NCBI RefSeq assembly: GCF_037975245.1
Contig: NC_092579.1
Span: forward strand, 7,966,001-8,030,000
Source: Apostichopus japonicus
Lineage: Eukaryota; Echinodermata; Holothuroidea; Aspidochirotida; Stichopodidae
Direction: 5' to 3'
DNA length: 64,000 nucleotides
A program made the position numbers and the translations under genes. Below are positions 17,912-45,002 of the stretch, one piece after another. Position 1 is the first letter of the stretch, and each line of letters starts with the position of its first letter. Under the pieces are notes generated by a model that worked only from the letters and a program-made list of their open reading frames with translations, ran no database searches and was not told where the DNA came from.

Positions 17912-18031
17912 CTAGACTAAAGTTCCAATGCATCCATCTCCCTTACACTGAGGAAATGGGAAGTAATCGGGCACGATATTGGCTTCGCTAGTAAACGCTA
18001 CAGTTGTTCCCCTTGGTCCAGGATACTCCGC
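17912..18031 (-). CDS. AprA-like copy 1, terminal exon 15
   Basis: It encodes [20 protein letters not shown], then [16 protein letters not shown] and TAG at 17914-17912. The two C-terminal cysteines (QCKGDGC) are shared with the paralogue. A candidate poly(A) signal (AATAAA on the - strand) lies at 17718-17713. Confidence 0.92.
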   Translation of the reverse strand, partial: AEYPGPRGTTVAFTSEANIVPDYFPFPQCKGDGCIGTLV

Positions 18032-21000
18032 CTGCAAGGAGTAAAAGGTAGAAATTATCCTTTCTTATAACATGATCGTTAAGCGAATACTATTGTAAAG
18101 TTGCCCAAGAAATTCAGACTACGGAGTGTGGGAATTTGCGAATAAATCTATCAATGCAGGCAGGTGTTCAGATTTATTTCCAATTATGTGCCATATGTCC
18201 CGTGGCAAGTGCATTGGGTACAACATTTTAATTCCGCCAGTTAACCAATACATAATAATAAGCAATATATATATATATATATATATATATATATATATTG
18301 CATACTATTTAGTATTCTTTGAAATTACATGATTCGCTCAGAACATCGATAACTTAAAACCAAAACGCAAATTACAACTTACAACTACATCAAAGTATAA
18401 CCTATAACTTCTTTTGTTATTTACGTAACTGGATTGCTCCCCCTGTAAATTATGCACGGAATAAGACTTACCACAACGAAGAAACAAGTCCATCCGAGAG
18501 CTGGTTTAATGACTTCTGCGATGTATACACCCTTGGACTAAAGTTGAAAATAGACAAGAAATATGTCAATACACAACATTGTGACGAAGTTTACAGTCAG
18601 TGTGGGAGGCTCTCTTGTGGACAATTCACGTGGCATTTATCCTTTTTATCCGTCATCACTTCTTAACTTTAGTAAAAATGTTATAACTTTTGTCAATATG
18701 ACCAGTTTCACTTACCGGATTGGTTGGCGGGAAGGCTTTATAAAATACTGGTTGAATGGCTGGTTCAGTAGAATTAACAGCAGCGCCACGAGCCAAACGG
18801 AAGTCACGTCTGTAGAGAAAGTTGGATAGTTAAAAAGAAAACGATAAAAGAAAAATACCTTTCTATATGGTAATGATATTCTTCAAGGTTATTAAACAAC
18901 TTCTACGAAAGTGAAATTAAATCTTTTTGTAAAGTTAGATTCAATAAAGGTAAATAATTAATACATAAACTATTACACTGTTTAATTATTTATTGTACTT
19001 GTCCTGACATATTGCATCTCTTTTGTATCCGTACTGGATAGAACCGGTTGGCCGACATTTACTAAACTCCCCGTTATAAGACAATATATATATATATATA
19101 TATATATATATATCAGAGATTTAAGCTTTCCAATTTATTTTATGGAGTACATATAGTATATAATAAGTAGTTGTGGTACTAAATCTGGATGTAAAGCGAG
19201 TACACACACTGAAATACACATAACCACAATTAAGGAGATGGTGTTGCGCGGTTGGGGAGTTAGTGAGCCTGCGGGCGGACCGATCTTGTGTAGCTTCATA
19301 AGAAGAGATGACATCACAATTGTTGTTACAATTTGCAAACTGAGTCATAATATGTTTGACTAAGGGGAGCGTTTTTTTACTTGGCGTAAGAGTCAAAGCC
19401 CGTTTTTGCAAAGATGGCCATATGTGGCCCGACGACGCATTGCAATGCGTCAAGCTATCAACAAACAGAACTTGTAAGTCCTCTTCATTACCTTTCTTGG
19501 GTTAGAGTGGTGGCCCGGTATGCTGTAACCCTCATAGGGACCAGGTCGGTGTAGAAACGAATAACGCCATGTGTTGCATTCTAGATTGTATAATACACAA
19601 TAAACAACAATGGATGTAGGCCTATAGAGCAATATGGTGGCATGACTGAATGAATGGAATTAAGGAATACCGACACGGCTTGGTTTGACACATATCTGGT
19701 AGTAGTAGTAGTAGTATAGTAGTAGTAGTAATAATAATGATAATAATAATAATAATAATAATAATAATAATAATAATAATGATAATGATAATGATGATGA
19801 TGATGATGATGATGATGATGATGATGATGATGATGATGATGATGATGATGATGATGATGATGATGATGATGATGATGATGATGATGATGATGATGATGAT
19901 GATGATGATGATGATGATGATGATGATGATGATGATGATGATGATGATGATGATGATGATGATGATGATGATGATGATGATGATGATAATGATAATGATA
20001 ATAATAATAATAATAATAATAATAATAATAATGATAATGATAATGATAATGATAATGATAATGACGATAATAATAATAATAATAATAATAATAATAATAA
20101 TAATAATAATAATAATAATAATAATAATAATAATAATAATAATAATAATAATAATAATAATAATAATAATTAAGTTTAACTTCGTGTTTTATTGCTCAAT
20201 AATATTTACCTCATATAGATCCCAGGAGAGTTGTGGTAAGGGTATACCCTGTAAGAGAAATTGAAACAGGAAATAAATAAGTTCAAATTATAGTTATTCT
20301 CATCTCGTCTCTAAGATATTGTATTCTTTTTATTCCAGATGTTCCATAATAGGATTTGCAATGGAACAGTTAAAAGTCTTTCTCGTGGCAATGGGGTGAG
20401 TTTGAGTAATTAAAAAAAAGGGTCATGTTTGAGGAGAAAGGATAGTAATTGTGAAATTTATAATGCCTGGAATGGATGTAAGACGCAAAATGCATTTATT
20501 CATTTTAGACCAACAGATATAGTAAAAGATGAACCGCATACTCAATTTGAAGTTTAATTTGTTTTGGATAATTTCGAAATGTATAGACTAATGTATGCAA
20601 TTTGAAATGTCACGCCATTTGATATATATTTCCAGTTCAATGGAATGAAGAGTAGTGTGTGAAAAGTTGATAGACGTTATAGGCCTATAGATGATCTGAT
20701 ATGTAATAGCAATGCCCTTTTTTCTTTAATTGTTGACCACTTGAAATGCTATCTCTGTTTGTCTGTCTGTCGGTATGTCTGTCTGTTTGGCCGTTTTAAT
20801 TCAAACTTACCTCTATCACTGAGAGCATGAAACCTGATAATTCATCCATTACGTTTAAGTGATGAAGAATCAACGAATGTTCAGCATTGGCGTGAATTCT
20901 GAAAGGAAAGAGAGATAAAGAAAAGGGTGGTGAATAACTTACGATTTTTAACAAACAGTTTGTCTCTCATTACCACACTGGAACTGTCCGCTATACATTG

Positions 21001-44200: not shown

Positions 44201-45002
44201 TTACCGTAATGGGGGGCATTGCCCCAGAATTCCCCCTTCTCTACCTTGGCTACTGTCCTGCATCATTCTTGAGCGCCCTACATTACCTGCACATTGCTTT
44301 AGGAAAGCGTTGTGGTTAAGTGGATAAGGCAGTGGACTTGTGATATAAGGGTTACAGGTTCGAGTCCTAGTCACATCGTTGCGTTGTGTCCTTGGGCAAA
44401 GCGCTTTATCTCCATTGCCGCCCTTCAATCAGATGTATATATGGGGACTTGTGAGGTAACTTGTAAATATAGTTGTGTGTACCGGTTTGTGGCTGCCCTT
44501 TATGGGAAGTCCCCCGGGGGACACGTGGATGAGGTGCACTGTGGTGCCCCAGGAGATATTGTTTGAATTGTGCACACTTTGGTGTACGTGACAACATACC
44601 AATGGCCCTAGGTTAAGTTGTAAAGTCGTGTGAGGAGGTCTTAAACCCAGACAAGACTGTAAACCTTCAGCTTTAACTTTTTAACTAAATCTAGGTTCAT
44701 TGAGTATTTGGTTCCAAAGAATGTTATCTCTGGCCTAGTAGTAGAAACTTATTTGCGAACACCCCTTCTCCCATACCCTTGCTGTAGACTCATACTTGTT
44801 CTTAAGTGTTTTGTGCTTTGTAAGCAGAGTTAAGTCTAAAATATGAAGGTAGCCTATATGGTTGTTATTTTTTGTTCAACAGGCGGAATACCCTGGCCCA
44901 CGTGGTTCAACGATTCGATTTACGTCAGAGTCTAACATTGTGCCTGACGTATTTCCGTTCCCACAATGCAAAGGTGAAGGGTGTGTAGGGGTATTGGTGT
45001 AG
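32023..45002 (+). CDS. Secreted PhoPQ-activated pathogenicity-related / AprA-like protein, copy 2
   Basis: Fifteen exons: 32023-32221, 34906-35020, 36119-36187, 36756-36804, 37033-37152, 37362-37442, 37827-37916, 38852-38981, 39288-39405, 40103-40190, 40894-40932, 41600-41688, 42566-42659, 43424-43489, 44883-45002. The sum is 1467 nt, 488 residues plus TAG. ATG at 32023 is chosen over an upstream in-frame GTG at 32008: it fits GTCATGG and gives a 22-residue leader like the paralogue's. Blocks in order: [77 protein letters not shown]. The putative triad is Ser210, Asp302, His331; sequons NMT, NAT, NST. Family PF10142, known from bacteria, Dictyostelium AprA and marine invertebrates. The enzymatic role in animals is not established. 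Twelve of 15 exon lengths equal copy 1, and all phases match. Confidence 0.92.
34506..34640. repeat. (TA)n/(GT)n compound microsatellite
   Basis: Long TA runs with two TACATA interruptions end in a short GTGTGT run. It lies in intron 1 of the + strand AprA-like gene, about 270 bp before exon 2. Confidence 0.95.
34906..35020 (+). CDS. AprA-like copy 2, exon 2
   Basis: 115 nt with acceptor tttcag and donor GTACGA. It encodes [18 protein letters not shown] and [13 protein letters not shown]. The donor sits inside an apparent TAG stop, which splicing removes (TA|T). Confidence 0.88.
36119..36187 (+). CDS. AprA-like copy 2, exon 3
   Basis: 69 nt with acceptor taccag and donor GTAAGT. It encodes [20 protein letters not shown] and TG. 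Confidence 0.9.
36756..36804 (+). CDS. AprA-like copy 2, exon 4
   Basis: 49 nt with acceptor gtttag and donor GTAAGT. It encodes [16 protein letters not shown]. The first, split codon gives Ile where copy 1 has Met. Confidence 0.9.
37033..37152 (+). CDS. AprA-like copy 2, exon 5
   Basis: 120 nt with acceptor ttgtag and donor GTAACC. It encodes [19 protein letters not shown] and [14 protein letters not shown]. Confidence 0.92.
37362..37442 (+). CDS. AprA-like copy 2, exon 6 (nucleophile Ser)
   Basis: 81 nt. It encodes [20 protein letters not shown] and VAGESK. The putative nucleophile Ser210 is the penultimate codon before the intron. Confidence 0.92.
37827..37916 (+). CDS. AprA-like copy 2, exon 7
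   Basis: 90 nt. It encodes [20 protein letters not shown] and [10 protein letters not shown]. Donor GTGAGT. Confidence 0.92.
38852..38981 (+). CDS. AprA-like copy 2, exon 8
   Basis: 130 nt with acceptor ctctag and donor GTAATT. It encodes [20 protein letters not shown] and [10 protein letters not shown]. Confidence 0.92.
39288..39405 (+). CDS. AprA-like copy 2, exon 9 (putative catalytic Asp)
   Basis: 118 nt with acceptor ttacag and donor GTAAGG. It encodes [20 protein letters not shown], then [19 protein letters not shown]. Confidence 0.92.
40103..40190 (+). CDS. AprA-like copy 2, exon 10 (putative catalytic His)
   Basis: 88 nt with acceptor tttacag and donor GTATGT. It encodes [20 protein letters not shown] and SAFMMSVME. 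Confidence 0.92.
40894..40932 (+). CDS. AprA-like copy 2, exon 11 (39-nt microexon)
   Basis: The acceptor caacag and donor GTGAAA bound [13 protein letters not shown]. It is the same size and phase as the copy 1 microexon. Confidence 0.88.
41600..41688 (+). CDS. AprA-like copy 2, exon 12
   Basis: 89 nt with acceptor atttag and donor GTTTGT. It encodes [15 protein letters not shown] and [12 protein letters not shown]. Confidence 0.88.
42566..42659 (+). CDS. AprA-like copy 2, exon 13
   Basis: 94 nt with acceptor ctgcag and donor GTAAGT. It encodes [16 protein letters not shown] and [13 protein letters not shown]. Confidence 0.92.
43424..43489 (+). CDS. AprA-like copy 2, exon 14
   Basis: 66 nt with acceptor taacag and donor GTAAGT. 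It encodes [20 protein letters not shown] and VV. Confidence 0.92.
44303..44670 (+). mobile_element. tRNA-derived SINE
   Basis: The head has box A-like TGGTTAAGTGG (44313-44323) and box B GGTTCGAGTCC (44357-44367) at tRNA spacing. The body contains GTGTCCTTGGGCAAAGCGC and TTTATCTCCATTGCC, a tail common in invertebrate tRNA-SINEs. The right boundary is approximate; no duplication or poly-A tail was identified. It lies in the last intron of the + strand AprA-like gene. Confidence 0.7.
44883..45002 (+). CDS. AprA-like copy 2, terminal exon 15
   Basis: The acceptor is caacag. It encodes [20 protein letters not shown], then [16 protein letters not shown] and TAG at 45000-45002. A candidate AATAAA lies at 45826-45831, which would imply a 3' UTR of about 0.8 kb. 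Confidence 0.92.
   Translation, partial: AEYPGPRGSTIRFTSESNIVPDVFPFPQCKGEGCVGVLV

Follow-up and report, generated by a model that had tools for sequence, protein, structure and literature searches.

The sea cucumber Apostichopus japonicus carries a head-to-head pair of genes, here called A and B, in a 64,000-nt stretch of its genome (NCBI RefSeq assembly GCF_037975245.1, contig NC_092579.1, positions 7,966,001 to 8,030,000 of the forward strand; this whole stretch is the window, and positions below are those of the window unless a contig is named). It is probable, at about 0.72, that A and B are intact paralogues of the PF10142/S82 family which arose by an old local inverted duplication and encode secreted serine hydrolases, within an animal family of at least ten copies. 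The two genes share one intron-exon structure, are each other's closest relatives among the ten copies of this genome, encode constrained proteins, and both retain the three residues of a predicted Ser-Asp-His triad. Taken alone, the A-B pair is an ordinary old duplication. A, B and the other copies add new members to a family already known; what merits following up is their mixture of apparently secreted, anchored and inactive paralogues.

Gene models and catalytic residues of A and B

29424-17912, minus strand: gene A, predicted 15 coding exons, 1470 nt, 489 amino acids, PF10142 protein
29424-29223, 26774-26657, 25921-25853, 24665-24617, 24092-23976, 23410-23330, 22690-22601, 22127-21998, minus strand: exons 1-8 of gene A
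21685-21568, 20898-20811, 20248-20210, 19580-19492, 18809-18716, 18537-18472, 18031-17912, minus strand: exons 9-15 of gene A
32023-45002, plus strand: gene B, predicted 15 coding exons, 1467 nt, 488 amino acids, PF10142 protein
32023-32221, 34906-35020, 36119-36187, 36756-36804, 37033-37152, 37362-37442, 37827-37916, 38852-38981, plus strand: exons 1-8 of gene B
39288-39405, 40103-40190, 40894-40932, 41600-41688, 42566-42659, 43424-43489, 44883-45002, plus strand: exons 9-15 of gene B

The exon boundaries of A and B were set by hand from a self-comparison of the open frames in the window, which gave 15 colinear blocks (29436 to 17915 on the minus strand against 31981-44999 on the plus strand), and the start codons were either placed by eye or assigned to the first ATG in frame. 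All 28 introns of the two models are GT-AG, and no internal stops are present. The phases of the 14 introns are equal between A and B, and 12 of the 15 exons are equal in length, with exons 1, 2 and 5 differing by 3 nt, that is, by one codon. When the exon ends were searched again free of phase and scored against the eight other copies, 25 of the 26 internal exons of A and B were unchanged. The exception is exon 3 of A (25921-25853), which has a possible tandem acceptor 3 nt further in; this acceptor was preferred by the phase-free search and would give an exon of 66 nt, the length that all but one of the eight other copies have, and it would cut the equal lengths of A and B to 11 of 15. An earlier sequence-only reading of the window had described the pair, its coordinates and its mirrored 15-exon architecture, and the splice models bear out this description together with its phase and length counts, the latter subject to the alternative acceptor. 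The divergent layout at a distance of 2.6 kb likewise holds, with 2,598 bp between the start codons. A blastn comparison between the two halves with the exons masked returned two weak matches (E 5e-4 and 0.002), neither of them joining corresponding introns, in keeping with the claim that the introns share no obvious sequence.

Both proteins match the PF10142 profile over nearly its whole length (positions 2-367 of 367), A with residues 27-401 of 489 (E 5.8e-111, 371.2 bits) and B with residues 26-400 of 488 (E 1.5e-108, 363.3 bits), the curated cut-off being 20.3; the proposed family membership was thereby confirmed. A scan of A against NCBIfam matched no family. PF10142 corresponds to MEROPS S82, a group of alpha/beta hydrolases described in the excerpt consulted as barely characterised (PMC11878206).

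23330-23410, minus strand: exon 6 of A, putative nucleophile motif GASK with Ser211; counterpart in B at 37362-37442, reading GESK
21568-21685, minus strand: exon 9 of A, Asp303 in GGDEFF; counterpart in B at 39288-39405
20811-20898, minus strand: exon 10 of A, His332 in NAEH; counterpart in B at 40103-40190

Residue conservation was judged in an alignment of 90 rows, comprising the ten animal proteins and 80 bacterial relatives. Of 223 stretches matched by pattern, 164 were confirmed, and the best 80 of these serve as the bacterial rows; they come mostly from metagenome assemblies, as judged by title, and the bacterial members among the confirmed stretches are spread over many phyla. All 80 bacterial rows carry Ser211, Asp303 and His332 (numbering of A). 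Among the ten animal rows, Asp303 is invariant (90/90 overall), Ser211 and His332 are each present in nine (89/90 overall), and all three are retained in B. The G-x-S-K motif suggests that these residues form a Ser-Asp-His triad, as does the alignment of a profile built from five of the ten animal proteins with the engineered hydrolase 4diu, a weak match (E 0.0099) in which Asp303 and His332 pair with an Asp and a His. In addition, all ten animal proteins share a C-terminal Cys-x4-Cys, possibly a disulfide, whereas the 80 bacterial rows have no Cys at either column. A and B thus resemble the bacterial S82 relatives in the full-length profile match, the conserved triad residues and the mostly hydrophobic N-termini, but the animal copies differ from them in the C-terminal Cys-x4-Cys and, in seven copies, in a predicted membrane anchor.

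The ten-copy family and the history of the pair

C19:14.536-14.659 Mb: T1-T5, five same-strand copies in an array, found in the genome search
C19:14612049-14581999, minus strand: T4, intact copy, 513 codons including the stop
C19:30903165-30887830, minus strand: P6, intact copy
C19:30967577-30996219, plus strand: P7, intact copy
C12 contig, 23396010-23377740: the C12 copy, intact

The genome searched comprises 671.6 Mb in 35 contigs, in which the window is C19:7966001-8030000. All listed matches, 23 of 23 with the PF10142 profile and 63 of 63 with protein A, fell inside the same ten genes, a count that is a lower bound. P6 and P7 form a second divergent pair, separated by ~64 kb. Each of the eight extra copies yielded a model of 15 GT-AG exons free of internal stops, the phases being imposed from A and the lengths free within 15 nt; exon 15 of P7 was added at assembly, and the starts were chosen as for A and B. 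In a phase-free check of these copies within 25 nt of the exon ends, which covered the internal exons and left exons 1 and 15 aside, all 104 of 104 exons kept the same ends and phases.

All ten copies have the same 14 intron phases, and exons 4, 6, 7, 8, 9 and 11 are of a single length throughout. The number of equal exon lengths out of 15 is 12 for A-B, 13 for B-T5, 12 for both A-T1 and B-T1, and 14 for T2-T3, and 12 or more are equal in 13 of the 45 pairs, A-B counted among them. The exon match had been read as a mark of this pair, which we could not uphold: T5 and T1, which match B at 13 and A at 12 of 15 exons, lie ~6.6 Mb away. Because the ten copies share the phases and most of the lengths, the mirror symmetry of A and B reflects the exon plan that the family had from its ancestor, and the two genes are distinguished by their position and their sisterhood. 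T4 reads GAAE for GASK and NTDN for NAEH and so lacks the catalytic Ser and His; it is the source of both exceptions in the alignment and is likely a pseudoenzyme. Among the matches listed for the family names in the open-licence literature, the titles and abstract openings gave no study of animal gene structure or copy number.

A tree built by maximum likelihood from the ten animal copies and 33 bacterial rows, drawn from the 80 with no more than five per phylum, places the animal copies in one group against the bacterial rows with a support of 100/100. Within this group, A and B are sisters (100/100), P7 joins C12 (100/99), and T1-T5 fall together (99/97). Neighbouring genes that are each other's closest relative, as A and B are among the ten copies of this genome, are what defines a local inverted duplicate. 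The amino-acid identity agrees, with 73% between A and B (356 of 487 aligned residues) versus at most 49% from either of them to any other copy. The nonsynonymous distance (dN) between A and B is 0.20, and the proportion of synonymous differences (pS) is 0.83, with the synonymous sites saturated; four-fold sites are identical at 57 of 161 positions (35%), close to the values for A-T5 (39/110) and A-P6 (30/93). Because the synonymous sites are saturated and dN is low, we conclude that the duplication is old and that both proteins are under purifying selection. On this sequence evidence, A and B are an old local duplication with both copies intact and constrained, as had been proposed, and the 100/100 sisterhood and the intact frames speak for it as well. 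Relative-rate tests were mixed: B changed more than A in 10 of 10 comparisons, and because p < 0.05 was reached with only three of the ten outgroups (T1, T5 and the row labelled L034), we do not claim a faster evolution of B.

Export, activity and alternative explanations

29356-29424, minus strand: N-terminus of A, residues 1-23, short, hydrophobic and signal-peptide-like; run of 17, best 19-residue hydropathy 1.88
32023-32088, plus strand: N-terminus of B, residues 1-22, short, hydrophobic and signal-peptide-like; run of 12, best 19-residue hydropathy 1.63

Localisation was judged from hydropathy alone, a run being the longest stretch that contains no charged residue and no His, Asn, Gln or Pro. 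The short N-terminal hydrophobic segments make the secretion of A and B plausible, as the sequence-only reading had supposed. The N-terminus of P6 resembles them (run of 18, best 19-residue hydropathy 1.54) and is probably of the same short, signal-peptide-like kind. Seven copies (T1-T5, P7 and C12) look membrane-anchored, since their N-terminal runs of 21-26 residues at 2.5-3.5 are followed by a stalk, in the manner of a signal anchor. A hydrophobic start was found in 64 of 66 scored bacterial relatives (14 of the 80 rows were unscored, scoring used the most favourable ATG, and no control set was included); this start makes it probable that export came first in the family and that the anchor arose later. 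Approximately unbiased (AU) tests reject neither a single clade of the seven anchored copies (p 0.277) nor a clade of A, B and P6 (p 0.263), so they do not fix the number of anchor gains.

We propose that one 15-exon ancestor gave rise to the animal family of at least ten copies, and that an old local duplication with inversion then produced A and B. Both proteins would be exported by means of a predicted cleavable signal peptide. Because of this predicted export and the kept triad, A and B are most likely serine hydrolases that act outside the cell. By analogy with the dipeptidyl peptidase IV (DPPIV)-like activity reported for Dictyostelium AprA, they would probably be exopeptidases that trim extracellular peptides. 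A link of A and B to circulating cells is possible.

Several observations weigh against this proposal. B has a Glu (GESK) beside the catalytic Ser where A has an Ala (GASK), and this Glu occurs in 0 of the 89 other rows; because GESK is found in none of the nine other animal or 80 bacterial rows, the activity of B could differ. Searches of the PDB found no relative of solved structure at E <= 0.001, the best values being 0.012 for A alone and 0.0099 for the five-row profile. The placement of A and B as sister to the other eight copies has a support of only 92/93. The saturated synonymous distance between A and B gives no numeric dN/dS, so that of the dN/dS comparison envisaged for the pair, the low dN and the purifying selection stand and the ratio does not. 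Finally, the duplication and the inversion could have been separate events, the copy arising inverted at once or in tandem and being inverted later.

According to the excerpts consulted, here and for the papers cited below, Dictyostelium AprA is a secreted protein that inhibits proliferation and, through GrlH, drives cells away (PMC5821085), and a DPPIV-like protease activity has been reported for it (PMC8326840). AprA-like names occur in animals as well. In heat-stressed sea cucumbers (Apostichopus), an AprA-named gene or protein is up 3.57, with 3.08, probably the spread, in the next column (PMC4783884), and AprA-named mRNA is reduced in slow-growing sea cucumbers (PMC5513535). In mussel (Mytilus) haemocytes treated with lipopolysaccharide (LPS), an AprA-named gene or protein is up 11.64-fold (PMC7773633), and in the clam Mercenaria, one is higher in the haemolymph than in the extrapallial fluid (PMC8902148). 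The statement that the family is known mainly from bacteria and Dictyostelium is therefore too narrow. The animal proteins share the name; they are presented in these excerpts as single transcripts or proteins, without gene structure, copy number or pairing.

A and B might, on this background, be true equivalents of AprA, that is, secreted chalones or chemorepellents acting through receptors on the animal's own cells, such as coelomocytes. They share a family with AprA by its S82/PF10142 filing (PMC11878206), AprA itself is secreted, antiproliferative and repellent via GrlH, and AprA-named genes or proteins appear in LPS-treated mussel haemocytes, in clam haemolymph and in the heat-stressed sea cucumber. 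However, the repressor and repellent roles belong to AprA, to which A and B are likened by family filing. The animal names, as given in the excerpts, appear to rest on similarity, with no test of an animal member described there, and the family occurs in bacteria of many phyla, where such a role would be unlikely. The chalone explanation rests on the AprA name, and we regard it as unlikely. We also give little credence to the idea that the animal genes make up a set for extracellular signalling derived from one bacterial-type hydrolase, in which A, B and P6 would be secreted and active, T1-T3, T5, P7 and C12 anchored and active, and T4 an anchored pseudoenzyme that might partner the secreted pair or serve as a receptor-like decoy; on this view, A and B would be ligand-like enzymes that differ from each other in activity (GASK versus GESK). 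The eukaryotic member described in the cited excerpts, AprA, represses growth in amoebae and acts on them as a chemorepellent, and the family is called barely characterised. A set of ten copies on one exon plan, with predicted secreted, anchored and probably catalytically dead members, offers defined genes with which to find out whether these proteins act in animals as signals, as peptide trimmers or as both.

29425-32022: region between the starts of A and B, 2,598 bp, with G-rich runs
30550-30670: 11-nt G-rich tandem repeat within this region
29734-29858: stretch within this region with weak similarity to a stretch in intron 9 of B

Two further explanations concern the neighbourhood of A and B itself. 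The pair could be co-regulated from one bidirectional promoter and kept together for that reason, as its divergent orientation, the 2.6 kb between the start codons and its persistence until the synonymous sites were saturated might suggest. Bidirectional promoters are often CpG-rich, but the CpG observed/expected ratio is 0.62 in the gap versus 0.65 in the window. The 1,300 bp upstream of A and of B show no similarity better than E 0.72 and no mirrored upstream sequence, and part of the gap is filled by tandem repeats. P6 and P7, the other divergent genes, lie ~64 kb apart, and P7 is closest to C12, on another contig. Moreover, bidirectional pairs are described in the excerpt consulted as having start sites less than ~1 kb apart (PMC2713978), whereas 2,598 bp separate the start codons of A and B, and here the partners are duplicates of each other. 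The shared regulation suggested for the pair thus finds no support; common enhancers are possible, and we consider a single bidirectional promoter quite unlikely. Since nearby paralogues can undergo gene conversion, A and B could alternatively be members of an older cluster, not each other's duplicate, that were made alike in this way, for which their high identity of 73% might speak. However, each of six blocks covering the A-B coding sequence has a high pS (0.71-0.99), without a converted patch, and the corresponding introns do not match. Because synonymous divergence is this high throughout, recent conversion between A and B was rejected, and we find an origin by conversion within an older cluster very improbable compared with an old inverted duplication.

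Other features of the gap were recorded. In and around it, there are two pairs of inverted repeats of 14-15 nt. Matches to sigma-70-type promoters, irrelevant to an animal, number 9 versus 8.1 expected in shuffles, and a search of an intergenic stretch in plasmids gave no match.

Repeats within the genes and flanking genes

Intron 3 of A contains, antisense to the gene, a sequence resembling tRNA-Ile(TAT) (25609-25681, plus strand), which belongs to a dispersed repeat of ~205 bp (25560-25764). Of 768 candidate copies of this repeat, 40 were scored, and the 39 besides itself are 97-98% identical over 179-205 bases. Intron 6 of T4 contains one such copy. The repeat is probably a young tRNA-derived short interspersed element (SINE). 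Intron 11 of A contains a 442-bp TAATGA/ATG repeat (19729-20170).

5199-12729, plus strand: left neighbour, CMAS-like
51774-63555, plus strand: right neighbour, may be a Tie-like receptor
56311-57429, plus strand: reverse transcriptase frame in the right flank, 373 amino acids

In the left neighbour, the frame at 12490-12729 matches the N-acylneuraminate cytidylyltransferase 3ewi (E 3.2e-12), and the frames at 5199 and 6222 look CMAS-like as well; none of these three frames had a Pfam match above the curated cut-off. In the right neighbour, the frame at 63253-63555 is of the epidermal growth factor (EGF) kind and matches 2gy5, the angiopoietin-1 receptor (E 3.8e-10). The frame at 51774-52295 gave no Pfam match, and that at 59694-60020 gave one at E 0.093, below the cut-off and probably meaningless. 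The reverse transcriptase frame matches RVT_1 (E 1.5e-34) and resembles that of a long interspersed element (LINE).

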